Source of the DNA: a virus
Reading direction: 5' to 3' (one strand)
IMG/VR virus record: IMGVR_UViG_3300028607_001332
Location: 1 to 39,801 of that record
DNA length: 39,801 nt
Part shown: positions 6,582-37,700 of the stretch, one piece after another
Layout: each line of letters opens with the position of its first letter
Numbering within the stretch: the first letter of the stretch is position 1
Position numbers and translations under genes: made by a program
Notes under the pieces: model-generated
The model's database searches: none
Told to the model about the DNA's origin: nothing
Seen by the model: the letters and a program-made list of their open reading frames with translations, nothing else

Positions 6582-6905
6582 CTAACCCCCAACTTTTTTA
6601 AGTCTATATAATTTTTGATCCCGATCAAACATCAGACAGTTGACCGTACCGAACTTTTGAATGAGTGTTGCTAGAGTTATATGACTTAGAGTCATTATAC
6701 CAGACGCCGCAAAAAAGTCAACCTCTGAATTGAAAGAAAGTGAAATTATTCTAGCTTCTATGTCTTTTTGTAAGTTATCATCCCAGATAGAATCGTTAAG
6801 TGTATTTGTATCATAAAATAAATATGCGAGTTCTCCGTATGTATTTAAGTTACAAAGACTTCCCTGTGTCATTCTATGAGTTAGAAAGACTCTACTTCTT
6901 GGCAT
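6582..6905 (-). CDS. Hypothetical 107-aa protein
   Basis: ATG 6905 lies inside the 3' end of the preceding gene. The shared 25-base stretch 6882-6906 encodes both that gene's CQEVESF ending and this protein's MPRSRVFL beginning in different frames. The same stretch recurs at 7106-7130, where it opens only a 12-codon relic. The protein is mixed alpha/beta with no known motif. Function unknown. Confidence 0.65.
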   Translation of the reverse strand: MPRSRVFLTHRMTQGSLCNLNTYGELAYLFYDTNTLNDSIWDDNLQKDIEARIISLSFNSEVDFFAASGIMTLSHITLATLIQKFGTVNCLMFDRDQKLYRLKKVGG

Positions 6906-7063
6906 AACACATCATCCACATAAGATATACTAAAGTCTTCAAATTCTACCTTTAAGATTTGAAGAATACCACTCTTTACGGATTCTATATCTGAAGGTGA
7001 AGGTTCAGTTTCAGTTTGCTTTACTTCACCATCTTCAAAGATATAAATGTACCTAGTTGTCAT
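6881..7063 (-). CDS. Small 60-aa cassette protein ending CQEVESF
   Basis: It starts MTTRYIYIFEDGEVKQ and ends CQEVESF. The core is acidic and beta-like. The leader and start region (7061-7093) nearly copy the end of the helicase gene, and the last seven codons are identical to those of the next upstream small gene, while the cores of the two are unrelated by eye. This suggests gene replacement between fixed flanks. Function unknown. Confidence 0.65.
   Translation of the reverse strand: MTTRYIYIFEDGEVKQTETEPSPSDIESVKSGILQILKVEFEDFSISYVDDVLCQEVESF
6882..6906 (+). repeat. 25-bp direct repeat A, copy 1
   Basis: Exact 25-base match to 7106-7130, beginning TAGAAAGACTCTACTTC on the plus strand. 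On the minus strand it encodes the shared C-terminal CQEVESF and, in another frame, the start of the 107-aa gene. Confidence 0.95.
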
Positions 7064-7093: not shown

Positions 7094-7129
7094 GTCCTCA
7101 TCTACTAGAAAGACTCTACTTCTTGGCAT
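7091..7129 (-). pseudogene. 12-codon relic of the 107-aa gene start
   Basis: The second copy of repeat A opens MPRSRVFL as in the 107-aa gene, then runs into VDED and a stop. The GTAGATGAGGA-TAA ending resembles the DVDED ending of the coiled-coil gene at 5879. It looks like a deletion junction left after tandem duplication of the block, not a functional gene. Confidence 0.6.
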
Positions 7130-7383
7130 ATAGTTTTTCTTTGTTTTGATCTAAGATTTATTACGAGTTCTCTAACATGATGTACAGCATCTTCAAAAGA
7201 ACTAAATTCTTGTATAAGAAATATATCAGAGTAACTATTGTTAGATCCTATATATTTCCACCAAAACCAAAACAATTTTCTTTGAATTTTCCACACGGAT
7301 TTACCGTTCCCGTCTATCTGTTCGATAAAACGAAATAAAATTGGTTTAACGTGACTATCATATTTTTTAATTTCAGCACTCAT
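7105..7383 (-). CDS. 92-aa cassette protein ending CQEVESF
   Basis: ATG 7383 lies 4 bases after the helicase stop at 7388. The protein starts MSAEIKKYDSHVKPILF, has an aromatic-rich stretch KLFWFWWKYIG and ends with the same CQEVESF as the next gene downstream. Leader and tail are shared with that gene, the interior is not. No known domain. Confidence 0.65.
   Translation of the reverse strand: MSAEIKKYDSHVKPILFRFIEQIDGNGKSVWKIQRKLFWFWWKYIGSNNSYSDIFLIQEFSSFEDAVHHVRELVINLRSKQRKTICQEVESF
7106..7130 (+). repeat. 25-bp direct repeat A, copy 2
   Basis: Exact copy of 6882-6906; it encodes the last residues of the 92-aa protein and opens the truncated MPRSRVFL relic. Confidence 0.95.
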
Positions 7384-9499: not shown

Positions 9500-9527
9500 A
9501 AAAAGACAACCCCTCCTCTGGGGGAGG
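9500..9527 (-). terminator. Probable intrinsic terminator between modification and replication genes
   Basis: On the minus strand CCTCC (9527-9523) pairs with GGAGG (9516-9512) around a 6-base loop, extended by G/C-rich flanks, and is followed within about 8 bases by TTTTT (9504-9500). It lies just downstream of the small CPGC gene and upstream of the helicase start, so it could separate the accessory operon from the replication genes. Confidence 0.55.
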
Positions 9528-9528
9528 A

Positions 9529-9915
9529 CTAAGATAATTCTTCTTTCTTTGTCACTTCAGAAAGATGTAATTGTACAGCTTCTCTAATCAAAGATTCATA
9601 GTGCCTTAGTCCGAAAATACTTGTATCCACAAAATCCAATATTATAGTCCATTTTTGTTGTTGTGTATTCTTATGCACACGTTCCGCCCACACAGTTAGA
9701 TTATTTAATATCTCTTCTGGTTTAGTTCTATCCATAGCGGCGGCAACAAGATGGCAACCAGGACACGCGCCTACTTTATATCTTTTTGTAAAAATCCATC
9801 TTAATGCCGAACCTGAACCTAAAAGAAGCATATAGTTAAGATTAAGATTAGATTTCTTACTTTCTTTAATGGCTTGTCTTAATTTTAGCTTAGCTCTAAC
9901 TTTATTACAACTCAT
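9529..9915 (-). CDS. Small protein with CPGC motif, last gene of the glycosyltransferase operon
   Basis: A 128-aa protein; ATG 9915 is preferred over the TTG at 9921. After a basic N terminus it carries KVGACPGCHLVAAAMDRTKP (centred near residues 52-62), a Cys-x2-Cys followed by a helix with MD, then NNLTVWAERV. Short phage proteins with a G-C-x-C/C-x2-C box followed by an AAxMN/D helix often accompany phage glycosyltransferase genes in my experience, but I cannot name the family. The Cys pair could bind metal. It follows the GT2-GT32 gene by about 40 bases. Confidence 0.6.
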   Translation of the reverse strand: MSCNKVRAKLKLRQAIKESKKSNLNLNYMLLLGSGSALRWIFTKRYKVGACPGCHLVAAAMDRTKPEEILNNLTVWAERVHKNTQQQKWTIILDFVDTSIFGLRHYESLIREAVQLHLSEVTKKEELS

Positions 9916-9954
9916 AGACAACTTTCATAGAGAACTTATCATAGTAAATACTTA

Positions 9955-11553
9955 TCATAGTAAATACTGAGCATATTTAGTAAAAGTATTCTTGATCTCA
10001 GTTACATTACTAGGAGTGATACTATTATTCATCATCTGACTCTTGGGAGTACCACCAAACCAATGTATACCTATACAATTATTAGGAATAACATTTATTT
10101 CCATCCATATCCTATCTACTTCATTCCATGCCCAAGGATAAAAAGATTTCTCTTGTACTTCTTCGTATTTTAAGCTTTTAAACTTATTTCTAAGCATAGC
10201 CATAGCAACTTCTCCAGGTCGCTTATGCCCAGCCCAACTTCTACCTAAACCACCTGCCCTATAAAATGCTTCTGCTCCTGTATTCTGATAAGCTGCGCCA
10301 TTATAGCCTGATAATGCTTGACATAATACGTGACGAAATAAAAGACTGTTAGGAGTAGATCCAAAGAAACCTATAGACGCATACCCTCTTGAAAGACAAT
10401 ATACTGTATCATTATTTTTCCATTTTTCATATGGTATAGGTTTAAGAAACAAAATATCCATATCTGCATAAAATCCTCCCTCTGTAGAAAGTAGTTCCCA
10501 TTGGAAGAAATCACTTGCATGGGCAGGAGCTAGATTATCAATAGGGGCCTCATAATCTATTATTTCTATATCTAAACTTTCAACTTGGTTCCAGTAATCT
10601 TTACCAGTGTACTCACCACAGTCCTGTATTTCTTTAGACTTCCAACCTTGATTACTACACTTAATATCAGACGTATAAAGTTTAATATCCCAATCTAAGT
10701 TATGTATACGAAAACTCTTAAGTGTCAAATATCTTATCCATGACAGTTTATCTGAAGCCCAATAGAAATTCATACATTTAGGAATACAATTAGGAATACA
10801 TTTAGTCTTATCTTTAAACGGTTCATATTTCCAAGGACCACTAGCAGCTTGCCATACTCCTATACTCCTAGCTTCTTTTACTTTAGAGGCATATAATTTT
10901 CTAGAAGGGGCTTCTTCTACACGTCCAAACTTTACACCCTTATGAGACATATGGTGAGTGATTATATCGCTACTATGTCTAGGTTTTAATTTTAGTCCAT
11001 TCATTATACAATCAGCAAACCAATTATCGTCATAACAAACTGTCTTAAAGTCTTCATCGTTACCCCCTACTGCATACAAATCTTCTCTCAGAATAGAACC
11101 ACAGAAGAAAAAGGGAACAGGTCTTTTATTAGGAGAGCAGTAGTCTCCTATATATCTTATAGATTTACCTTCACCATTATAATGATGGTTCTCAGTTTTA
11201 GATAATAAGAACTCCCCCTCTCTTAGCTCTACTACTAATCTCTCTATAACACCTGGACTTATATGTATAACATCATCACATTGACAAATTATTATATCTC
11301 CTTTAGCTTTACGATAACCTACATTACGAGCAAACACAGGGTTCCTATACTCTGAGTTTCTTGTGTACTCATAGGTAAAATTTAAATACAGCTTTGCATA
11401 CTTTAAGCAGACTTCTACAGTCTTATCAGCAGGACCATCATTAACTACAATAACTTCCCAATCAAAATTAGGTTCTTGTTTATAGATACTAGTAAGAACT
11501 AAATCTAAAGACTCAGGCTTATCGAAAGTTGTTATTACTATAGAACATTTCAT
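9955..11553 (-). CDS. Two-domain glycosyltransferase (GT2 + GT32-like)
   Basis: A 532-aa fusion. Residues 1 to about 240 are a GT-A family 2 domain: VITTFDKPESL start, VVNDGPAD, and CQCDDV (D93/D94) as the metal site. Residues about 258-520 are a GT32-like domain with FYWASDKLSWIRY, then HASDFFQWELLSTEGG and the DXD motif YADMD (D364, D366), typical of enzymes such as mannosyl or alpha-galactosyl transferases with a DXD sugar site. The ATG overlaps the upstream stop (ATGA). One chain with two different sugar-transfer sites suggests it adds two successive sugars. Donor and acceptor are unknown. Confidence 0.85.
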   Translation of the reverse strand: MKCSIVITTFDKPESLDLVLTSIYKQEPNFDWEVIVVNDGPADKTVEVCLKYAKLYLNFTYEYTRNSEYRNPVFARNVGYRKAKGDIIICQCDDVIHISPGVIERLVVELREGEFLLSKTENHHYNGEGKSIRYIGDYCSPNKRPVPFFFCGSILREDLYAVGGNDEDFKTVCYDDNWFADCIMNGLKLKPRHSSDIITHHMSHKGVKFGRVEEAPSRKLYASKVKEARSIGVWQAASGPWKYEPFKDKTKCIPNCIPKCMNFYWASDKLSWIRYLTLKSFRIHNLDWDIKLYTSDIKCSNQGWKSKEIQDCGEYTGKDYWNQVESLDIEIIDYEAPIDNLAPAHASDFFQWELLSTEGGFYADMDILFLKPIPYEKWKNNDTVYCLSRGYASIGFFGSTPNSLLFRHVLCQALSGYNGAAYQNTGAEAFYRAGGLGRSWAGHKRPGEVAMAMLRNKFKSLKYEEVQEKSFYPWAWNEVDRIWMEINVIPNNCIGIHWFGGTPKSQMMNNSITPSNVTEIKNTFTKYAQYLL

Positions 11554-12374
11554 AACTGTTCATCTCTTTCACATATAGGATCATATTGCTTCCATAAAAA
11601 AAGACCCTCTTCACAATAAGGAACTAAATCTTTTGTTTCACGGGGTTTCGGTTTTAAACTTTCCTCAGTTGGCACGCAGTCTATAGGAAAAAGTTCTTTA
11701 GGTACTTTATAACATTCACACTTTGTCTCATTAAACATCCAACTCTTCTTAGATTTCTGTTGGAATTCTTCTTTAGTACAGTGTGAAAATCCTTGTTTCA
11801 TCATACTCTGTTCATAGTTAGAATGCCCGTAATGTATAACTTGAAGATAAGTTCTCTCTACTTTCTTTATAGTAATCGGGTGTATTATATGATGGACACC
11901 TGGTCTAATCAAAAAATGTATCCCCGGATTAACTCTCCATAACCTACAGAACCATCCTGTATCAAAATAAGTATCTACTCTAGCATAATTCTCCCCTCTC
12001 CATAGATTTATTTCATGAAATTCAAAAGCATCTATATCTTTATAATGTCTTGATTCAGTTAATCTACGCAGTCCACCTTCAGTAGCAATTCTATCTAGAA
12101 CTTCATCACAATCAATCCACATTAACCAATCAGGGGAGAATCGAAGTGCGTAATTTAATAAGTCTTGCTTGTTTTGTAATTCAGAATAAAAAGAATTTAT
12201 TCCTACGATTATATTAGGTGTATACTTACTTGCTACTTCTACACTATCATCTGTAGAACCATCATCATAGATAACAATATCATCAGCCCACTGTTTAACA
12301 TTCTCTAAACAACGAACTAAGTTTCCTTTTGACGATTCATTATACATCTGAATGAATGCACATATCTTAGGCAT
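11550..12374 (-). CDS. Family 2 glycosyltransferase
   Basis: A 274-aa soluble GT-A enzyme. It opens KICAFIQMYNES, with IVIYDDGSTDDS (residues 33-44) as the nucleotide-binding strand and WIDCDEVLD (D88-E91) as the metal-binding DXD-like motif. It is similar in style to family 2 enzymes of the SunS/lipopolysaccharide core type (MYNE then DDGSTD then DxDE). No membrane segments. It overlaps the next gene by ATGA and starts one base after the previous stop, so it is part of one operon. Target unknown; the neighbouring radical SAM enzymes suggest a joint pathway. Confidence 0.85.
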   Translation of the reverse strand: MPKICAFIQMYNESSKGNLVRCLENVKQWADDIVIYDDGSTDDSVEVASKYTPNIIVGINSFYSELQNKQDLLNYALRFSPDWLMWIDCDEVLDRIATEGGLRRLTESRHYKDIDAFEFHEINLWRGENYARVDTYFDTGWFCRLWRVNPGIHFLIRPGVHHIIHPITIKKVERTYLQVIHYGHSNYEQSMMKQGFSHCTKEEFQQKSKKSWMFNETKCECYKVPKELFPIDCVPTEESLKPKPRETKDLVPYCEEGLFLWKQYDPICERDEQL

Positions 12375-12375
12375 A

Positions 12376-13821
12376 CTAATTTAATTCCCTATAAGCTTCT
12401 TGATGTATTTCTTCTAACCTTTCTTTAGGGACTACCGTATTTTGCATACTGGCTTGCCGCCAATTAAAAGTATCTGGATTAAAATTAGGGTCTAAGTATC
12501 CTTTATCTATAGCTTCATCATGAAGTTTAGTTCCAGGTAGAGGTATAACTAACATAAAATTAGCACTCTTAGCTCCCGCTGCCATATGACCACGAGCTAT
12601 TTCTATAGTAGTTTGTATCTCTTCTTCAGTCTCATCAGGATACCCAATCATATAGTTACAACCTGAAGATATGCCTCTATCATTTAATTCTCTTATTAAC
12701 CCGTCAATATCGGAGCGAGTTATATCCCATTTACTAGAGGCGTAGTAGTCAATTATACGTTGATTACCAGATTCTATAGGTAAACTTATAGCCCTAAATG
12801 AACAATCACATAGGACATCCAATACTTCAAGATCAGGTAAGAATTTTTTTAATCCTCTATCAAACTTTAATAGATGGGCAATATTGATACCATTAATATC
12901 CCAAAGTTTAAACCCAAACTCTTTTATTTCTTTAAGTAACTGAATACCTCTTCTTTTATGCCCAAATAAGGTATCATCTTCAAGAAAAAGTTCTTCAACA
13001 CCTAAGTCTTTTAATTTTTGAAATTCTACTTTAACTCTATCAATTGACTTAATACGAAAGGTACTCATGTTTCCAGATAGACTACCAGTACCTTCTCCTG
13101 ATATATGGCAGTACTTACACTTAAATACACACCCTAATGAAGTCATCATAGAAGAATATTTAAATATACTACTATTACTATTATTAGCAGAAGGAGCAGG
13201 GGCAGCACCATGAGGTCTACCTATCTTCCAATATCTCTCATTAGGATGGAGTTCCCAAGCGGGTACAGGTAAATCATCTAAATTAAGTACTAGATCAGAA
13301 TTACAGACAGGATTAGTAAAAGTATTACATCTTATTCCAGATATTAAACTTAAATCTTTACCACTAGATATCTCTACTATAGTCTTCTCTGCTTCAGATA
13401 GACAGACTATATCAAACCCAGCCTCTAAGAAATGAGAGGCTCTACTTCTAGCATTAGTTCCCCCTGAAATTAGAGTTATATGAGAAAAGTTTCTCTTTAT
13501 CAATCTAGCACATTCAAGAGCCATAGTCTCTTGTGCTGTAAAGATAGAAGTAATTCCTACTATATCACAATCTGCTACCTCTTCTAATATTCTTTCTTCT
13601 GATACACCTGTTCGCTTTAACCCACTAGGTAAATCAGTAGAATTATAGAAACAATCAAGAGAGTCTTTGTCATTTCCTATACAAGCATCAAATACAAATA
13701 CATCATGATCAGCTTGTATTAATGCTGCACCTAAACTTGGATAAGCTAATGCACCTTCAGGTTTACAATCAACATTAGGGTGTGATTGTTGTGGTGGATA
13801 TAGTAAACAGATTTTACTCAT
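12376..13821 (-). CDS. Radical SAM enzyme with B12-binding-type N-terminal domain
   Basis: A 481-aa protein. Residues 1 to about 150 form a Rossmann-like B12-binding-type domain (ICLLYPPQQSHPN, YPSLGAALIQADHDVFVFDA, SGGTNARS). The radical SAM core follows with the CxxxCxxC cluster site C231, C235, C238 (GCVFKCKYC). After it come ESGNQRII and IGYPDETEEEI, both typical of the BchE/HpnJ-like B12 radical SAM group. Such enzymes methylate or rearrange unreactive carbons of lipids, cofactors or peptides. The classic DxHxxG cobalamin ligand is not evident, as in many members. It is coupled to the neighbouring SAM gene by ATGA. Confidence 0.87.
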   Translation of the reverse strand: MSKICLLYPPQQSHPNVDCKPEGALAYPSLGAALIQADHDVFVFDACIGNDKDSLDCFYNSTDLPSGLKRTGVSEERILEEVADCDIVGITSIFTAQETMALECARLIKRNFSHITLISGGTNARSRASHFLEAGFDIVCLSEAEKTIVEISSGKDLSLISGIRCNTFTNPVCNSDLVLNLDDLPVPAWELHPNERYWKIGRPHGAAPAPSANNSNSSIFKYSSMMTSLGCVFKCKYCHISGEGTGSLSGNMSTFRIKSIDRVKVEFQKLKDLGVEELFLEDDTLFGHKRRGIQLLKEIKEFGFKLWDINGINIAHLLKFDRGLKKFLPDLEVLDVLCDCSFRAISLPIESGNQRIIDYYASSKWDITRSDIDGLIRELNDRGISSGCNYMIGYPDETEEEIQTTIEIARGHMAAGAKSANFMLVIPLPGTKLHDEAIDKGYLDPNFNPDTFNWRQASMQNTVVPKERLEEIHQEAYRELN

Positions 13822-14912
13822 ACAAAGTTCTTATGTTTTGCATCAGAATCAATAGCGTATAAGATTGTTCTATTCTTATCATTATACATACAACGAGGAC
13901 AAGTAGTAGAGTCATAATCTTTCAGTTCATCATATATTTTGTGCCATAAATCATAGAAGGTTTGTTTCTTTAATGATCCAAGCAGACCTTGCAAATTATA
14001 CGCTAGTATACAACAACGATAGAGATTTAAGTCAGCCCCTATATAGGTTTGTACTTTTTGTATATTACACTCACTATAGTCAGGAGATTTTTGTAGTAAA
14101 TCATCTACTCTATTACTAAAGTTATTGAAGACTTTAAAAGAGTCAGTACTTTCTTTAGAAGCTTGATGACAAAGATCAGCAGATTCCTCTAACCAGCCGT
14201 CAAAATAAGCTGGACCTTCTTCTTGAAAAATAGCAGAGATTCTTATATTATCTATACCAGTTTCTTTAGCTTGTATAGTACAATCTATTACTTCAGTCCA
14301 ATTATCTTTAGTAATAACAAAGCCTACTCCTATTATTAAATCACTCTTGACCCTCTCTCTACATTCAACTAAATCGTTAATATTCTCCCATACTCTACCA
14401 TAAACTTCTTCTTTTACTTTGCGTATCTCACTATAGGTCTTAGCTGTTCCAGAATCAATAGAGATTCTTACCCACGAAGCTTGCATAAGAATATCACATA
14501 ACTCTTCATCTATCTTAACTCCATTAGTTACAAGAGCAAGGTCCATATCACGATCAAGACACTCTTGAAAAATCATTTTATGATTAGGATGTACAGTTGG
14601 TTCTCCCCCACCTGTGAACTGCACAGCTTTAGTACCCAATTTTCTACAGTCTTCTAGTATCTCGACGCACTTATCATATTCAATCATTCTATTAGGATTA
14701 ATTCTACCTTTAGAATTAGGTTCACCAAATAATTGATTAGAGGTATAGCCTGTCATACGATAAGCACAGAAACCACAATCTTGATTACACAAATCAGAGA
14801 TAATTAATTGTACATGCAATGGAGGTACAAACTGATTACCTCTAATAGCTTCTATTATTTTAGGATGATGAAGTATTTTTAGTGGTGAATAAGCTGAATT
14901 GTCATTAGACAT
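13818..14912 (-). CDS. Radical SAM enzyme with SPASM-like C terminus
   Basis: A 364-aa protein. The cluster motif is C42, C46, C49 (SDLCNQDCGFC), followed by QFTGGGEPTVHP, the GGE SAM-binding motif. The last 80 residues have CNIQK, RCCILA and STTCPRCMYND, a set of extra cysteines plus the phrase GLLGSLKKQTFYDLWHK typical of SPASM or twitch domains that bind auxiliary Fe-S clusters. Enzymes of this build usually modify peptides or proteins, or act in sugar and cofactor pathways. It overlaps the preceding glycosyltransferase-like gene by 8 bases. The role here is unknown. Confidence 0.87.
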   Translation of the reverse strand: MSNDNSAYSPLKILHHPKIIEAIRGNQFVPPLHVQLIISDLCNQDCGFCAYRMTGYTSNQLFGEPNSKGRINPNRMIEYDKCVEILEDCRKLGTKAVQFTGGGEPTVHPNHKMIFQECLDRDMDLALVTNGVKIDEELCDILMQASWVRISIDSGTAKTYSEIRKVKEEVYGRVWENINDLVECRERVKSDLIIGVGFVITKDNWTEVIDCTIQAKETGIDNIRISAIFQEEGPAYFDGWLEESADLCHQASKESTDSFKVFNNFSNRVDDLLQKSPDYSECNIQKVQTYIGADLNLYRCCILAYNLQGLLGSLKKQTFYDLWHKIYDELKDYDSTTCPRCMYNDKNRTILYAIDSDAKHKNFV

Positions 14913-15651
14913 AAGTATTAGCTCGTCTAAATTTTGTCATAGTTGTAGTTGTATACAAACTACTTACTTCACCTGTATGTTGGCAACGTGATGCATTCAC
15001 TATATTAATTGGAATATGTAAATTATTACAATATATTCCAAATTTAACATCATCTTTTTTATTTTCTGTATTAGTCATTGCTTTCAGGTTAGATCTGAGA
15101 GATAAGAGCATATCTCTATTTAAAATTAAAGCGAGCATTCCAAGGAAAGGTTCTGAGAATCTTAATTTAGAATAAACTTCTTTAGTAGGTACGTATTTAG
15201 CTGAACGATATAAAGAGATAGGACCATTATTACAAGGCCAATTATTTTCTACCCAAGCCCTAGTATCTGGTAGAAAGTCTACATCATCTTGAATAAATAA
15301 AAACTTAGTATTATCTAAGGTATCTAACTCTGAGAAGTAATGAACTCTATTACAAAAATTTCCCCAATTACCTAAGATTTCTTTATTATTAACTTGATGA
15401 TATCCTTCAGGTATATCATTAGATCCAGGTTCAACAAAGAGTATGGCACCTTTGAATCCTGCTTCTTCAACAGACTTTAAAGTTTGTTTGACCCTTGGTA
15501 TTTGTCGGTATGCTACAGTCATACCAACAACCCAATTTTGTGGTCCTATAGAATGTACTTCAGAATACTTAATGGATCTTTCTTCTGCATCAGCCCTTCT
15601 GATTTCATCACGAACTGCTCGGATATGCTTACGTCGTTCGTTACAAGGCAT
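14905..15651 (-). CDS. Glycosyltransferase-like protein
   Basis: A 248-aa protein. After a basic N terminus it has VGMTVAYRQIPRVKQTLKSV (a GT-A type first strand and helix), AILFVEPGS and FIQDDVDFLPDTR (near residues 125-140), where QDDVD matches a metal-binding DXD site. The C-terminal half has CNNLHIPINIVNASRCQHTG, resembling the GT-A acceptor region. It is the first enzyme of the modification operon, 7 bases after the Cys-rich protein. GT assignment is by pattern; donor and acceptor are unknown. Confidence 0.7.
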   Translation of the reverse strand: MPCNERRKHIRAVRDEIRRADAEERSIKYSEVHSIGPQNWVVGMTVAYRQIPRVKQTLKSVEEAGFKGAILFVEPGSNDIPEGYHQVNNKEILGNWGNFCNRVHYFSELDTLDNTKFLFIQDDVDFLPDTRAWVENNWPCNNGPISLYRSAKYVPTKEVYSKLRFSEPFLGMLALILNRDMLLSLRSNLKAMTNTENKKDDVKFGIYCNNLHIPINIVNASRCQHTGEVSSLYTTTTMTKFRRANTYV

Positions 15652-15658
15652 TTACTCT

Positions 15659-15949
15659 TCACGCTGGTATGCAGTCTAAAATAATCTCCTGATTAACAAC
15701 GGTTCCATCTTCTAGCGGTGCCGGTGGACAAACACATAGAGTTCCCCCCAGTGTCGCACAATTTGAGCTAATCAAGTTCCAGCTAATACCATCCCATTTG
15801 TACGTGCATGTGCCGCATTGCGGTTCAGGTGGTGGCGGTGTCCCTCCATCACAACAACAATTAGGAAGATCCCCTTCATTTAGAATAAAATCTGAATTTA
15901 TATCTAGAAGGAATTCATCTTTATACGTTATGAATTCTAAATAAGCCAT
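15659..15949 (-). CDS. Small Cys-rich protein heading the modification operon
   Basis: A 96-aa protein with MAYLEFITYKDEF start, CCCDGG, a short PPPPEP spacer and CGTCTYKWDGISWNLISSNC, then LCVCPPAP near the end: ten cysteines in about 45 residues around one W-rich core. It has no signal peptide. It could be a minor virion protein related to the Cys-rich end of the preceding tail protein, or a substrate for the following radical SAM and glycosyltransferase enzymes. No family name can be assigned. Confidence 0.7.
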   Translation of the reverse strand: MAYLEFITYKDEFLLDINSDFILNEGDLPNCCCDGGTPPPPEPQCGTCTYKWDGISWNLISSNCATLGGTLCVCPPAPLEDGTVVNQEIILDCIPA

Positions 15950-15961
15950 TTTATTATATCA

Positions 15962-18160
15962 TTAAGGCGAAACTTCTGGACATGGATTTCCACATATAAT
16001 CGGATCTCCAGTACCTTCATCACAATCACCAAATGTAGCAAAGGATATAGGAATAAGAACAATACATTTACGTCCTTCTGAATCTGTAGTAGTCTCTGTT
16101 CTATAATAAGCTGTTGATTCTTCTAGTAGTAAATTAGATAAAGTACCAACAGAACCAGTTTCAGGTCCACAAGTTAAAACAGTAATTGCTTTACCTTTAA
16201 GAAGAAGAGAAGGATTTGTGCATACTTCTGAAGGGTCTGATGGATCTTCCCCTGGAACGTACTCAAGATTGAATTCATTATAAGCAGTAGCAGTATCAAA
16301 GTTTGTTCCGCCTAATGGAAAATCAGGTGTAGAATCTCCTGCTGTTGGGAAAGTACAAATAGTTTCAAAATTACCAGTTAATTCATAGTCACAAGTTCCT
16401 GATGAATTAAATGCAGCCCCAGTCATTACACTTTGTTCAGTTAAATCGATTTGATCTTTCCACTCAGGATCTCCACACCACATCATAGAAGTTTTAAATA
16501 ATACATGACCCTCAAGTTTACAATCACCTGACTCTTCGGCAAGTCTAATGAACTTACCGTCTTGTCCTGTACAAAAATCTTCTGGGACTGCTACATGAGT
16601 ACAATGATGCTGAACTGTGACTACATAGAGAATTACTCCTGTAGGAGTTAAATCAATATCGTATCTAACCCAATTTCCAGGAATCTGCGAAGTTCCGCCT
16701 TTACCTGAAGCTCCTGCACGAGTATTGTCTGCTGTAGCAGGTAATTCAATACCCTCACAATATGCTATTTTATCATGAGTTTCTATATCTAATGTTGCTA
16801 CTTTGTCATCAGGACACAAATCTTCAGATAATTGAGCCCATCCAGAAGTGGCTATAGGTTGTGCAAGTATCTTCCAAATATTCTCAAGAAATACTACAGT
16901 TACTACTTCTCCTGAAAAAAGATCTCTTCTACCTTCCTCACCTGGAGTTCCATTACACGCAACAACAGTGCATTCTAACTTTCCGTCACAAGGATTTGTA
17001 CTTTCTGTACTTACTGTACCTTCTGTACTTACTGCGGGAAAGAAATGATTTATAAGAACTACTTGTCCTCCCACACTAAAACAGGGTATATCAACTAATG
17101 GTCTACCTTGACGTGTAAGACCATACGAACCTATGAGTTTAAACTTAGATACACCCTGTTCATCTAAATAGATTACTGCATCAACTACTTCTCCTGGGAA
17201 TAAGAAGAACTTACCAAAATCATCTGTTAAAGTAACAATAACATTAGGAACTTCTTCAAATTTCTCAGTTACTGCGTTCCATTGTAATAGTAAAAAATCT
17301 CCTGTATCATTAGGGTTAAAACATTCTATAGCTTTTACCTTAAAGATAGGATCAGATTCCCCTACCCCTTTTCCTCCTGCTATTATACATAGACCTATTC
17401 CGAGTATAGGTCTAGCGTAGAAGAGATTGTCTTTCTTCAAGACTGTTCCTGTAAGATTAAGAACCTCATCTATCACAAAAGGTATAGCTGGCTCTGCCTT
17501 ATTAGGATCTTTTACTCCAGGATTACTGTCACCTACTTCTTCGTCTTGAACTTCTACTTTACCTCTAAACTTAGGTTGTATATCTTTTACTATTTTAACT
17601 CTTATAAGATGATCATTAGATTTTACAATCCATACTAGTTTCTCATCAGTATCAGGTTCAGCTATTACTACATAACCTGCACGAGTTAAACTAAGTTCTC
17701 CAGTATCTAATGGTCCTATAGGATGACCTATCTTTGGTAATTCATTTTCTACTTTATACCTAATTTGAACTGGTAGCGCACCTATTAATTGGCACCATTC
17801 AGCTTCATTGTTAGCTATAGCTCTATCATAGTTTGTAAAGTAATTAAATCCTGCTGCATGAAAAACAGCTTCAGTACGTACAGGCGGACCCCAAGGGTAG
17901 TTTATAATTAATGACTTATTAGGTGCGACCATAGAGAATGCAGGTATAACTTTACCTGTTCTATTCTCTAGTTGTATACGCTCTCGGAGAGAAGGCAACT
18001 TATTAGCAGTTGCAACTGAGGTAGCAGACTCTGACCCTATTAACCCCGTTATTCTTTTCTTAACACCCCTACGTAAAGCATTAAGTTTACCACGAAACTT
18101 TGGGCCTAAAGGTTCTCCCTTAATAAATGGGGGTATTTCTCTAGGATTGGGATCGGTCAT
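15962..18160 (-). CDS. Large virion (tail tip or minor tail) protein
   Basis: A 732-aa protein starting MTDPNPREIPPFIKGEP. Residues about 70-330 contain ENRTGKVIPAFSMVAPN and beta-rich stretches seen in receptor-side or baseplate hub proteins. The second half is Cys-rich with repeated beta segments (NPCDGKLECTVVACNG, DFCTGQ, CGNPCPE). A short in-frame repeat near 17000-17040 encodes STEGTVSTEST. It follows the tape measure and a 345-aa structural gene (ATGA overlap), which places it at the tail tip. The exact role is inferred from position. Confidence 0.65.
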   Translation of the reverse strand: MTDPNPREIPPFIKGEPLGPKFRGKLNALRRGVKKRITGLIGSESATSVATANKLPSLRERIQLENRTGKVIPAFSMVAPNKSLIINYPWGPPVRTEAVFHAAGFNYFTNYDRAIANNEAEWCQLIGALPVQIRYKVENELPKIGHPIGPLDTGELSLTRAGYVVIAEPDTDEKLVWIVKSNDHLIRVKIVKDIQPKFRGKVEVQDEEVGDSNPGVKDPNKAEPAIPFVIDEVLNLTGTVLKKDNLFYARPILGIGLCIIAGGKGVGESDPIFKVKAIECFNPNDTGDFLLLQWNAVTEKFEEVPNVIVTLTDDFGKFFLFPGEVVDAVIYLDEQGVSKFKLIGSYGLTRQGRPLVDIPCFSVGGQVVLINHFFPAVSTEGTVSTESTNPCDGKLECTVVACNGTPGEEGRRDLFSGEVVTVVFLENIWKILAQPIATSGWAQLSEDLCPDDKVATLDIETHDKIAYCEGIELPATADNTRAGASGKGGTSQIPGNWVRYDIDLTPTGVILYVVTVQHHCTHVAVPEDFCTGQDGKFIRLAEESGDCKLEGHVLFKTSMMWCGDPEWKDQIDLTEQSVMTGAAFNSSGTCDYELTGNFETICTFPTAGDSTPDFPLGGTNFDTATAYNEFNLEYVPGEDPSDPSEVCTNPSLLLKGKAITVLTCGPETGSVGTLSNLLLEESTAYYRTETTTDSEGRKCIVLIPISFATFGDCDEGTGDPIICGNPCPEVSP

Positions 18161-28878: not shown

Positions 28879-29169
28879 TTATTCTGTCCTTCGTTGTAAT
28901 CCCGTACCGTCTAAAAGGTCTTGAAGTGAATCAAATCGTGGTCCCGAAACTTCTCGCTCGAAAATCGCAACCGTCTCAGCGTCAAAGTGTCGAGTGTCAC
29001 AAGCCCAATGAGTAATCGGTGCGTTTGAATTTGCAGCCAGCGGTATCGTAAATACTTGCGGTTCCGGGCCTGCGCGAAATCCCAGCAACGCTTGCAGCTT
29101 GGTTTCGGTTGCAAGTCGCTGTGGTGCAGCAGCAGAGACAATTTGAGTTATACGTGCTCGCCGTGTCAT
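28879..29169 (-). CDS. Hypothetical 96-aa protein of the GC-rich island
   Basis: ATG 29169 overlaps the stop of the LamG gene (ATGA). It starts MTRRARITQIVSAAAPQRLA and contains QALLGFRAGPEPQVFTIPL. Codon use and GC content match the LamG gene and differ from the rest of the window, so the two were probably acquired together. No domain recognised; it might be a small partner of the adhesin. Confidence 0.6.
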   Translation of the reverse strand: MTRRARITQIVSAAAPQRLATETKLQALLGFRAGPEPQVFTIPLAANSNAPITHWACDTRHFDAETVAIFEREVSGPRFDSLQDLLDGTGLQRRTE

Positions 29170-31382
29170 GTTGCGTACCTGTCTGCATGGTAGGCGGAAT
29201 CGCTCGTACGGCCAGCCGCATCCAGTTCATCTGGATACGTGGCAACGTCCATAATCGTACCCTCGAAGTAGTCAACCGTTGACGTATGCACCAACGCGCC
29301 AAGTGTGTGATTGTCTCTGCCGCTTATGTCTCCGAACCACTTTCCGCTATTGCTACCCGTCGTGACCGTCAGCGATTGAGCCACATCATTTACCCAGATC
29401 AACCACGCCGATCCTGTGGTCACAATGCGGATCGTATAGACCGTAGAGACAGTCAACACGGTATCGCCCGTTACGCGATGCACAGTGCCACTATCGACCG
29501 CCTCCACGTAGACCTTTCCCGCCGAATCGATCCCAAAGCAAAGGAAATTAGACGTTCCCGCTTCATCGCTAGAGGCTCCGAACACTTGATCGGCTGCGAA
29601 CGCCGTCGAACCTGTCTTGAAGTCGAACACGATTTCCGCGTCAGCCGCGTTGGTCAAGATCGTATCAGTTATCATGTAGTTGGTTGTGCCGTTGTACGTC
29701 ACACCCGGTTCACCCTCCGTAACCGATTCTGTCCATGTCGGCGTGTTGCCGGGCGTCGTCTGCTTATACTGGCCAGAGCCTACTTTCGGTTGCCACGTTA
29801 CAACCGCATCACCATCAGTTGGCGTCGTGCTTTGCGGGCCGTCGTCGAGATTCCAGTACCCAATGCGGTTTGCGGTTCCTGGATCGTCGCCAGGAACGCT
29901 CGGAGTGCCTGTGTGGTCTTCAAAAAGAAAGGTTACTTCATCGGCAGTCAGTGCATCATCGTAAAGAATGATCTCGTCAATCAAACCGCCAAACCTAGAT
30001 GATGTGACCCCAGTGGAAAACGATGCGCCAAGCGTGACATTGTCCAGCCCTGTTGGATAGTCGGACCACTTGCCGTCGTCTGCTCCGCTTGCAACATTCA
30101 GCGTTTCTTCAACCCCGTTGAGGTACAGTTTGTAACTTGCACCGTCCGAAACACCGACTGCGTGATACCAAGTATCAGCGATCAGGGTTGTCGAACCCTC
30201 CATTTCGTTTGTTACACCCGCCGTTTTGCGAACGAATAGGGAAATCACCCCCGTACTATCTATGCGCAAAGGCGCCCATGCGTCCGTCGTGTCCGCTTCG
30301 TCACGCGAGACGAACAAATGCTGTGCAGAGGCCACGGCATTAGCTTTGAACCAGAGAGAGACACTACCCTGCGATGTAAGTGTAAAGGCAGAACTGCCGG
30401 CATCTACATAATCAGCCACCCCGTTGAACTTCAAGCTGTTTCCAGTTGCGCCACTCGGAACGTCACTCGACCACATCCCAAGTGCGTTGGTGCTGACCAG
30501 CGTGCCGTCGTTCGATCCCGCAGAGTCAATCGCCTGTTGCGTTGTTGGTCCTCCAGATGTCGCTATGTTCGACCCGACGCGCGTTAAGTCGTGACCGCCC
30601 GTGTGTGCATCAAGCAAGCCAAGCGCGGGGTCTGTCTCGTTACACTGATAATACACTTTCAGATCCGTCAGCAGATCCGAACCGTCATCACCAACTTGAC
30701 CAAGCGAGCCGTAGAACTTGCCGCTGCCTGAGTTGTAAAGCCAAGTTTTCTCTGCTGCTGTCAGCGTTCGTTTCCAGTAGGCAATGCGCGAGACGGCAGC
30801 ATTCAAATACTGACCCGCCGTCAGAGTCGCATCGATTCCAACCGTAAAGTCGCTGCTCGTCGTACCTGGCGTCCCAGTTGTCGATGCGTCGTCGTCAGTT
30901 GCGTCGTCAATGCTGATGAATACTTTGTTTGTTGTGCTGTCGTGTCCGAAGACAAGAAAGTACCAACGTCCAACGGCAGGCGTGACGCCGGAATCAATCG
31001 TCCCGACCGTTGTCGTCACTCCGTCCATCACTCGCCAGTTCCATTTTATGGACAGCCAGGGCGGGATGCCCGTCTCTTCGTATCTCAGTTCATACTCGAA
31101 ATCGCCCGTGTCGTATTTCGCCAGAACAACTCCACCGATCGACGAGCTTAACTTAACCCACCCAGCAAACGTAAAGTCTATGTCGCCCGCTTGCAGATCG
31201 GCATGGCTGGCAATCTCGAAGTGGCTCGCGTCTGATGCAAGCAAAAGCCGAGCGCCTTGCGTGCCGACCTTAGTGTCTGCGCGCATCCAGCGAGTCGTAC
31301 CCGTAAGAGATAACTCACCAATATAACCCATTCCAAGATTCAAACCCATTCCAAGATTCAAACCAATGCCGATGCCTGTCAT
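29166..31382 (-). CDS. LamG/concanavalin-like adhesin, probable receptor-binding protein
   Basis: A 738-aa protein with three LamG-like lectin sandwiches at roughly residues 40-225, 300-485 and 500-735. Typical phrases are DFTFAGWVKLSSSIGG, GRWYFLVFGHD, GSVSLWFKAN, DTWYHAVGVSD, YLNGV and GLIDEIILYDDALTADEV. The N terminus carries the repeat GLNLGMGLNLGMG. It is the best candidate for host surface recognition. ATG 31382 has AGGG 8 bases upstream and is preferred to the TTG before it. The gene is much richer in GC than the head genes around it, indicating transfer. Confidence 0.85.
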   Translation of the reverse strand: MTGIGIGLNLGMGLNLGMGYIGELSLTGTTRWMRADTKVGTQGARLLLASDASHFEIASHADLQAGDIDFTFAGWVKLSSSIGGVVLAKYDTGDFEYELRYEETGIPPWLSIKWNWRVMDGVTTTVGTIDSGVTPAVGRWYFLVFGHDSTTNKVFISIDDATDDDASTTGTPGTTSSDFTVGIDATLTAGQYLNAAVSRIAYWKRTLTAAEKTWLYNSGSGKFYGSLGQVGDDGSDLLTDLKVYYQCNETDPALGLLDAHTGGHDLTRVGSNIATSGGPTTQQAIDSAGSNDGTLVSTNALGMWSSDVPSGATGNSLKFNGVADYVDAGSSAFTLTSQGSVSLWFKANAVASAQHLFVSRDEADTTDAWAPLRIDSTGVISLFVRKTAGVTNEMEGSTTLIADTWYHAVGVSDGASYKLYLNGVEETLNVASGADDGKWSDYPTGLDNVTLGASFSTGVTSSRFGGLIDEIILYDDALTADEVTFLFEDHTGTPSVPGDDPGTANRIGYWNLDDGPQSTTPTDGDAVVTWQPKVGSGQYKQTTPGNTPTWTESVTEGEPGVTYNGTTNYMITDTILTNAADAEIVFDFKTGSTAFAADQVFGASSDEAGTSNFLCFGIDSAGKVYVEAVDSGTVHRVTGDTVLTVSTVYTIRIVTTGSAWLIWVNDVAQSLTVTTGSNSGKWFGDISGRDNHTLGALVHTSTVDYFEGTIMDVATYPDELDAAGRTSDSAYHADRYAT
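31327..31362 (+). repeat. Two copies of an 18-bp tandem repeat
   Basis: CCCATTCCAAGATTCAAA occurs twice in a row and encodes the doubled GLNLGM at the N terminus of the LamG protein. In-frame and therefore length-variable without loss of frame. Confidence 0.9.
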
Positions 31383-31426
31383 CAATAAAGCCCTAGCAGT
31401 AACATTGCAGTTGTAAAGATTAAAAT

Positions 31427-36166: not shown

Positions 36167-36976
36167 CTACGGTTTTAATTCAGGAATTGGCATAAACGAA
36201 GGTACTGCTACCTCTAAAATCACATAAAGTGTTAAGTTTCTATAGACTCTTAGACTATCATAACCAATTCCATCGTCACCCCAACTTGGTGACCAGGAAT
36301 TAGCATATGGGACGAATGCATCTCTACCTTCTACTTTTAAACCAACATAAGGAACACAATGTCTTGATCTACCTACTATTCCACAAAAATTATTAGCCAT
36401 TGCGGATTCTATTTCATCTGCACCCCTAGCAGTTGCCCATTTAGTAACTCTATGTTGTATTTTATCTTCCCAACCTGATGGTGGATCAGTTCTATAAGCA
36501 AGCCTGTCCCAAGTTAGATCAAACTTATCTTCATTCTCACTACCCGTCATAGGTAATGTACCTATATTTGCCGCACGTTTCATTCCATCAGAAATCATGG
36601 CTCCACTCATTAGAGTTCTACCAATATACCGATAAATGAACATACCTGAAAGACTAGTATGATTCTCTTCACCAAATCGTCTTGTATATGTTATCTCCAT
36701 AGCTTGTGCTATACCAAAACCTACACAAGCTGAAGTTTGACCTTGACTATATATCTTCTCAATAGTATCGAGTTGTTTATCCCAATTCTTTAAAGCTAAT
36801 TCTCTACGTTCATCTTTAGTTAGCATTAAAGCAGGATATTCTTCTTCAAAACTCTTCATCTCTCCAGTAGCCATCAATACCTGGCTCTCTGTCTCTTCAA
36901 TTAGACCTGTACCTTCTCCATCAGGTACATCACTTAAATCTAAGTCAACAAACTTACGATCAATTGGTAGTGGCAC
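36167..36976 (-). CDS. Papain-like cysteine peptidase (C1 family)
   Basis: A 269-aa protein from GTG 36976, chosen because AAGGAG lies 7 bases upstream; an earlier in-frame start at 37009 lies inside the previous gene. It has YSQGQTSACVGFGIAQAMEI with the oxyanion Gln (Q78) and catalytic Cys (C84), SRHCVPYVGLK with His (H206) and PYANSWSPSWGDDGIGY with Asn (N226), the C/H/N triad and NSWG box of papain. No signal peptide of its own; the preceding gene encodes a secreted protein. It might act on head or tail proteins or on the host envelope. Confidence 0.85.
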   Translation of the reverse strand: MPLPIDRKFVDLDLSDVPDGEGTGLIEETESQVLMATGEMKSFEEEYPALMLTKDERRELALKNWDKQLDTIEKIYSQGQTSACVGFGIAQAMEITYTRRFGEENHTSLSGMFIYRYIGRTLMSGAMISDGMKRAANIGTLPMTGSENEDKFDLTWDRLAYRTDPPSGWEDKIQHRVTKWATARGADEIESAMANNFCGIVGRSRHCVPYVGLKVEGRDAFVPYANSWSPSWGDDGIGYDSLRVYRNLTLYVILEVAVPSFMPIPELKP

Positions 36977-37700
36977 CGTGTATCTCCTTAAGCTTAGAGA
37001 TAAGATCACTTGAACTTAATTCTTTTAATTCGCCCGACCATTTAACGACGGCGTGACCCGAACCATCTAGCTGGACGAAAAAAACGAAAGGGAGCGTGGT
37101 TGCCTTATCAGCGTAAGATTTAACTGTCTTATTAACTGATCCATCTGCATTTTCAGCATCAGGAGGAAACTCAAAATGTGAATAATTCAGCTTACCATCA
37201 ACAAAAGTTCTAAGATCAAAAAGCTTACCTCTTTCACTAGCATTTAATTTAGAAGCTTCAGCAATAATGATCGAAGTTACTTTCCCACTTGTAGGAGTAT
37301 CGTCTATATCTGGCGGATCGTCAGGATCATCAGGATCATCAGGTATAATAGGTGGTGGTCTAGCACCTTCAACAGTTAAAGTAAATATTCTCTCTACAGT
37401 ATCAAATTCTTTTGCTTCCCAATTAATTAACCAAGCATCCAGCATTATTTCGTAAGTTCCTGGTTTAGCCCAAACAGAACACTCGTGTCTATTATTTGTG
37501 GTATGAGGTCTCAAGTCTACTTCAATAGAACGTGTTCTCCATTGAATACGAGCTAATTTAAAACCATCAGGAATTTCTACTCCAGCAGATAGAACTATTG
37601 CTCTATGCTCCTTAAAGGTGAATTTTTCTTCAGTATGTACTGAAAGCTGCTGACCACCGTTAATACCTGAAAATAGAAACAACAGCACTAAAATTTTCAT
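36960..37700 (-). CDS. Secreted protein with acidic Pro-rich linker
   Basis: A 246-aa protein with signal peptide MKILVLLFLFSGINGG. Residues about 20-110 form a beta domain (ending GTYEIMLDAWLINWEA, TVERIFTLTVEG). Then follows a linker PDDPDDPDDPPDID from 9-base repeats. A C-terminal domain (about 140-246) contains SHFEFPPDAENADGSV and ELKELSSSDLISKLKE. Start ATG 37700 overlaps the previous stop (ATGA). It precedes the papain-like gene, with which it may act. Function unknown. Confidence 0.7.
   Translation of the reverse strand: MKILVLLFLFSGINGGQQLSVHTEEKFTFKEHRAIVLSAGVEIPDGFKLARIQWRTRSIEVDLRPHTTNNRHECSVWAKPGTYEIMLDAWLINWEAKEFDTVERIFTLTVEGARPPPIIPDDPDDPDDPPDIDDTPTSGKVTSIIIAEASKLNASERGKLFDLRTFVDGKLNYSHFEFPPDAENADGSVNKTVKSYADKATTLPFVFFVQLDGSGHAVVKWSGELKELSSSDLISKLKEIHGATTN

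Follow-up and report, generated by a model that had tools for sequence, protein, structure and literature searches.

The genes at positions 9529-15651 of the window, by which we mean the whole 39,801-base virus record analyzed here, form what we read as a glycan cassette, in which two radical SAM enzymes remodel a sugar and the product is most likely delivered to a late virion protein; we give this reading, taken as a whole, about an even chance. The glycan-building role is well supported, and the cassette probably builds an unusual sugar chain, for which the phage's own tail may be the target; a virion acceptor is the most likely one, judging from gene position. The best reading of the cassette is a novel form of phage virion or surface glycosylation and not a peptide natural-product cluster.

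A gene block closing the late tail operon

The record, possibly a fragment, comes from a tailed phage, with genes found for terminase, portal, major head, and head-protease proteins. All of the genes discussed lie on the minus strand. Following the tail genes, the features are, in 5' to 3' order:

15962-18160, minus strand: 732-aa late protein of the tail module, directly upstream of the Cys-rich gene
15659-15949, minus strand: 96-aa Cys-rich protein, whose gene closes the tail module; optional neighbor of the cassette
14905-15651, minus strand: GT-like protein, with homologs carrying a QDD motif and a GT-A-like model
13818-14912, minus strand: twitch-type radical SAM enzyme (Pfam Radical_SAM 5.5e-18, Cys pattern, confident model)
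12376-13821, minus strand: B12-binding radical SAM enzyme (Pfam Radical_SAM 9e-16, B12-binding 2.3e-8)
11550-12374, minus strand: GT2 glycosyltransferase (Pfam GT2 1.7e-10)
9955-11553, minus strand: two-domain GT2-GT32 glycosyltransferase (Pfam GT2 2.4e-18, Gly_transf_sug/GT32 7.8e-7)
9529-9921, minus strand: small CPGC protein, last gene of the block
9511-9528, minus strand: terminator-like hairpin with a T-rich tail, directly 3' of the CPGC stop codon

The seven ORFs from the Cys-rich gene to the CPGC gene are present at the place, in the order, and on the strand given by the earlier note. Starting at the 732-aa gene, the intergenic distances are 12, 7, -8, -4, 1, -4, and 39 bases, the last of which corresponds to an ATG start of the CPGC gene at 9915 and becomes 33 bases with a TTG start at 9921. 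The overlapping stops and starts that had been described are therefore found at three of the six junctions within the block (-8, -4, -4), but not at the other three (7, 1, and 39 or 33 bases). The Cys-rich gene had also been taken as the first of its unit; since it lies only 12 bases behind the 732-aa gene, the unit must start elsewhere, and the gaps of 12 and 7 bases place the Cys-rich gene about equally near the tail gene and the cassette. The seven-gene block forms the final part of the late tail operon, where the label "tail" derives from gene order, gene length and composition, and synteny with the related locus L052, family matches playing no part. The glycosyltransferase genes are located within this structural operon, and their position is comparable in the relatives.

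The GC content of the enzyme block is 0.33-0.34, compared to 0.37 for its neighbors. We do not claim that the block was gained recently, because GC3 does not separate it from the other late genes. Ten terminator-like sites were observed against 5.3 expected; the hairpin after the CPGC gene was rejected as a terminator, its stem being no more stable than those of shuffled sequences (z 0.27).

Three other features of the record lie outside this operon end. A 739-aa LamG/concanavalin-type protein (29166-31385, minus strand; Laminin_G_3 2.7e-32) is encoded by a gene whose GC3 of 0.58, compared to about 0.25 for the pooled non-cassette genes, indicates that it is probably a recent import. A papain-like cysteine protease match (36167-37009, minus strand; Peptidase_C1 9.8e-5) lies close to the packaging genes, and two adjacent small ORFs (6881-7063 and 7105-7383, minus strand) have identical C-terminal residues, CQEVESF.

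Enzyme families of the block

The first radical SAM enzyme had been described as SPASM-like. A full SPASM domain has seven auxiliary Cys residues for two clusters, in the arrangement CX9-15GX4C-gap-CX2CX5CX3C-gap-C, whereas CxxxCxxC accompanied by four auxiliary Cys residues, for one extra cluster, defines a twitch domain. In an alignment of 39 rows, C42, C46, and C49 (the CxxxCxxC motif), as well as C282, C300, and C341, are invariant, C338 is conserved in at least 90% of the rows, and C301 is also conserved outside the motif. The four auxiliary residues C282, C300, C338, and C341 correspond to the twitch pattern and not to the full seven-Cys SPASM, and the matches to Pfam SPASM (0.0022) and NCBIfam N_Twi_rSAM (1.7e-11) are both below cut-off. 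In a smaller alignment of the enzyme and its relatives, the final residues read H-x-[NE]-F-[VIP] in nine of ten rows, a sequence feature which suggests that the C-terminus itself may have a role.

The model of the twitch enzyme (pLDDT 93.6) has DesII (Z 26.1 over 334 residues), BlsE (25.8 over 298 residues), and SkfB (25.7) as its best fold matches, which we consider tied at the level of a predicted structure; SuiB is also among the best. DesII acts on a sugar. In a profile search of PDB sequences, the first match is BlsE (4.9e-16), described as decarboxylating a glucuronoside (PMC3715490). Unlike these two sugar enzymes, SkfB is a peptide maturase. DesII and BlsE share the fold over most of the twitch enzyme, yet they are 14-16% identical to it, and the likeness is one of fold.

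The two Pfam domains of the second radical SAM enzyme support its assignment to the B12 type. Its nearest solved chain is AprD4 (3.9e-8), and the nearest NCBIfam models are HpnJ and P-methyltransferase, with scores far under their cut-offs.

The GT2 and GT2-GT32 assignments are likewise borne out by Pfam. For the GT2 protein, a search of PDB chains at E ≤0.01 returned only GmaR (8.9e-10) and SunS (1.5e-5), which are its nearest solved relatives, with weak sequence similarity; with two relatives of this GT2 as queries, neither was recovered at E 0.001. The GT domain of GmaR is described as glycosylating flagellin (PMC9638930). GmaR differs in having TPR and antirepressor parts, for which the 274-aa GT2 is too short. 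The top solved matches of the GT2-GT32 protein are polysaccharide synthases. The same fusion occurs in L042 (45% identity over 539 aa), and its two parts are encoded by separate, adjacent genes in L014 and others.

The remaining protein had been called GT-like, and no family match was found for it at E ≤0.09 in Pfam, PHROGs, or NCBIfam. Nevertheless, its homologs have an invariant QDD motif, and its low-confidence model (pLDDT 56.6) matches GT-A and nucleotidyltransferase structures (TMq about 0.42), which makes a GT-A fold glycosyltransferase probable on the basis of a prediction. A search of PDB sequences with its profile was discarded, as it gave ferritin noise alone (E ≥0.47). In L009, L042, L052 (two copies), and L053, the gene for such a homolog immediately precedes that for the radical SAM enzyme.

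GtrB-type glycosyltransferases are membrane-bound through C-terminal transmembrane helices. In no protein of the block does a hydrophobic segment exceed 1.6; these proteins therefore lack the membrane GtrB component of GtrABC serotype conversion, which disfavors a GtrB-type transfer at the membrane. Among the GT2 ORFs of the 66 viral clusters described below, drawn from the best 80 of 451 stretches, only 2 of 92 exceed a hydrophobicity of 1.9.

Recurrence of the cassette in phages and bacteria

The earlier note held that such gene sets are foreign to typical phages. An alignment-based scan of viral contigs with the twitch enzyme does not bear this out, as 451 of 531 candidate stretches were confirmed as relatives. 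With the same query, the bacterial and archaeal genomes gave 49 confirmed stretches out of 184 candidates, and six of the 49 have 39-48% identity. The radical SAM family is large and mainly viral, and environmental phages commonly carry the enzyme set. In a tree, the window's enzyme is unplaced inside a mixed, mostly viral group.

The best 80 of the 451 viral stretches were kept for locus analysis, and near-identical copies were collapsed at 90% identity, giving 66 clusters. Seven loci (L003, L005, L006, L007, L065, L081, and L082) were dropped before the counts because no ORF called in them matched radical SAM at 1e-30. Within 5 kb, GT2 genes are found in 51 of these 66 clusters, GT32 genes in 15, both in 14, and a B12 radical SAM gene in 5, whereas 13 clusters have neither a GT2 nor a GT32 match anywhere in the locus. 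Of the 553 ORFs within 3 kb, 86 encode glycosyltransferases, compared to 5 of 285 ORFs beyond 5 kb. Since the GT2 profile was built by iteration over these same loci, it may have drifted; the neighbor counts from Pfam do not depend on it, and in loci from the same best 80 stretches they show Glycos_transf_2 for 19 of 123 downstream neighbors and for 23 of 125 upstream ones. Methyltransferases and sugar epimerases are also among the Pfam-matched neighbors, and terminase, portal, and replication genes occur near the relatives as well. By eye and outside the counts, the dropped loci L005 and L006 show a GT2-like gene right behind the radical SAM gene, and L004 and L007 contain other glycosyltransferase-like genes.

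The cassette comes after tail-module genes in L009, L042, L052, and L053. In L009/L010, a tail-module protein is followed by a Cys-rich protein, a GT-like protein, the twitch enzyme, a methyltransferase, further radical SAM and glycosyltransferase genes, a GT32 gene, and a B12 enzyme 55% identical to that of the window. L052 has tail-module genes in common with the window, and a 398-aa protein with 46 Cys residues ahead of its two GT-like copies. Tail genes are also shared by L042 and L053, the latter with a Cys-rich gene and the former with none. More distant arrangements include longer series of apparent sugar genes in L014 and L015, a podovirus with a distant relative behind the major capsid gene and before the tail genes, accompanied by GT, PhyH, and NodB-like genes, and a 735-kb phage in which the relative lies among what appear by eye to be sugar genes.

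In L096, one of the six bacterial loci, the gene is surrounded by those for an STT3/PglB oligosaccharyltransferase, an epimerase, a methyltransferase, and a DegT aminotransferase. Another locus, L095, belongs to Candidatus Laterigemmans baculatus (genome G001), in whose phylum 7 of 392 genomes, including G001, match at 1e-60. A beta-lactamase-fold protein (PF00144 2e-15) adjoins the cassette at positions 14643-16343 of L052; its N-terminus resembles the planctomycete LEPR-XLL motif, which we take to be a weak hint of the host, though no LEPR-XLL model matched.

Proposed acceptor of the glycan

We favor a function in sugar chemistry because the gene company, the fold of the twitch enzyme, and the bacterial locus with STT3, epimerase, and DegT genes all agree. 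A protein-linked virion glycan is preferred because the GT2 matches GmaR and SunS, and because we found no membrane segments, no DNA-modification enzyme of the two families searched, and no PqqD. In the proposed pathway, the soluble GT2 of the GmaR/SunS kind would attach the first sugar to a protein, and the GT-like and GT2-GT32 proteins would lengthen the glycan. The twitch and B12 enzymes would remodel the sugar, for instance by deoxygenation, epimerization, or C-methylation, either while it is nucleotide-bound or within the chain as it grows. The acceptor would be a late virion protein, plausibly at the tail tip, and the glycan might alter adsorption or shield the particle. The unusual sugar, the late-gene location by the tail genes, and the possible virion target are points of the earlier reading that are supported. 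Against this reading stand the tie with SkfB in fold, the 13 of 66 clusters devoid of GT2 and GT32, and the two GT2 relatives that miss GmaR and SunS; moreover, lying next to tail genes is no proof that the acceptor is a tail protein, and the relatives also have terminase, portal, and replication genes as neighbors. Neither an oligosaccharyltransferase nor a sugar-nucleotide gene is present among the 20 of about 50 window ORFs scanned with Pfam.

Mycobacteriophages have virion glycosylation loci whose glycosyltransferases are reportedly phage-encoded, a feature shared with the cassette, whereas the virion glycan is here predicted from the genes. The mycobacteriophage glycans are on capsid and tail-tube subunits (Freeman et al. 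2023, as cited in PMC12619734), and the description in that citing paper mentions no radical SAM enzymes, which are present in our cassette. Radical SAM and glycosyltransferase genes are described as prominent in marine viral contigs (PMC7150976), and a description of such a cassette was not found in the literature searched, which covered few subscription papers. If our reading is right, a mainly viral radical SAM family makes sugars for the phages' own particles or for their hosts, and the cassette offers new sugar-modifying enzymes and a defined gene set to probe virion glycan function beyond mycobacteriophages.

Alternatively, the cassette might change a surface polysaccharide of the host, for superinfection exclusion or receptor change, and not the virion, which we consider possible but rather unlikely. 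Pelagimyophages, which are marine phages, have glycosyltransferases and radical SAM cassettes in their host-recognition region, among the tail-fiber genes, and the authors favor a change of the host O-chain for the glycosyltransferases (PMC7029224); the comparison is with myophages and concerns gene content. The relatives of our enzyme also neighbor nucleotide-sugar epimerases, PHROG "GtrB-like O-antigen conversion" families, GT32, and capsule-type glycosyltransferases. Nevertheless, the enzymes of the window have no membrane segments, no flippase or polymerase is found among the 20 ORFs scanned with Pfam, and co-expression with tail genes would be late for altering the host surface.

The Cys-rich gene is central to a second alternative, which we find improbable, namely that the radical SAM enzymes modify the 96-aa protein (as thioether, epimer, or S-glycoside) into a phage RiPP-like product. 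The protein has nine Cys residues (9.4%, compared to 1.6% across 50 window ORFs; binomial 2e-5 for a single ORF, before any correction for the 50) and its gene adjoins the enzymes, SkfB and SuiB are among the top fold matches, the second match of the GT2 is SunS, a peptide S-glycosyltransferase, and Cys-rich proteins occur at the corresponding place in L009, L052, and L053. A RiPP cluster, however, would have a conserved precursor accompanying the enzymes everywhere, and L042 has the enzymes without the Cys-rich gene, which argues against the earlier view of its product as the likely substrate. Relatives with all of the enzymes and no such gene had been named as an observation that would argue against this substrate; L042 largely provides it, with the GT-like protein, the radical SAM enzyme, and the full GT2-GT32 fusion, but falls short of the whole set as its contig stops before any B12 enzyme could show. 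Cys-rich ORFs are found in only four sampled loci, the fourth being L076, and the gene is thus optional to the cassette. In addition, the record has no PqqD/RRE match, although divergent RREs could escape detection, and the twitch enzyme has no RRE-sized N-terminal extension ahead of its core. No homologs of the 96-aa protein were found in the viral scan or by tblastn in phage records, and when its CxxC-x-Y-x-W-x4-W-x6-C motif was sought as a DNA pattern, the matches listed were apparently chance frames only. L076 also encodes a second radical SAM-like protein (9681-11105), whose sequence after CxxC resembles, by eye, an intein start.

Within the preferred reading of a virion glycan, the Cys-rich protein is itself a possible acceptor. 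A more specific version, which we regard as quite speculative, has a disulfide-rich tail-tip protein glycosylated on Ser/Thr or even Cys by the GmaR/SunS-like transferase, with a non-host sugar supplied by the twitch and B12 enzymes; viral radical chemistry would then yield a private glycan for receptor binding or shielding. In the 732-aa protein, 17 of the 21 cysteines lie in the C-terminal half, and one stretch is similar to part of a protein encoded at the equivalent position of L052 (30% over 92 aa, 1e-8). Hypermodification of the phage DNA with sugars is highly improbable, since, although phage glycosyltransferases can glycosylate DNA (as stated in PMC12619734), no thymidylate-synthase or TET/JBP family match is found in this possibly fragmentary record, the closest solved relatives of one glycosyltransferase act on proteins, and the genes lie by the tail genes.

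For the small CPGC protein, no match was found in Pfam, PHROGs, or NCBIfam, and a search for viral relatives of a 345-aa neighbor found none. The CPGC protein was considered as a shared partner domain, given a visual likeness to CxC-type domains of L009 and L052, and was set aside after phmmer gave no support. In L052, a CxC-type domain is fused to one of the GT-like copies.
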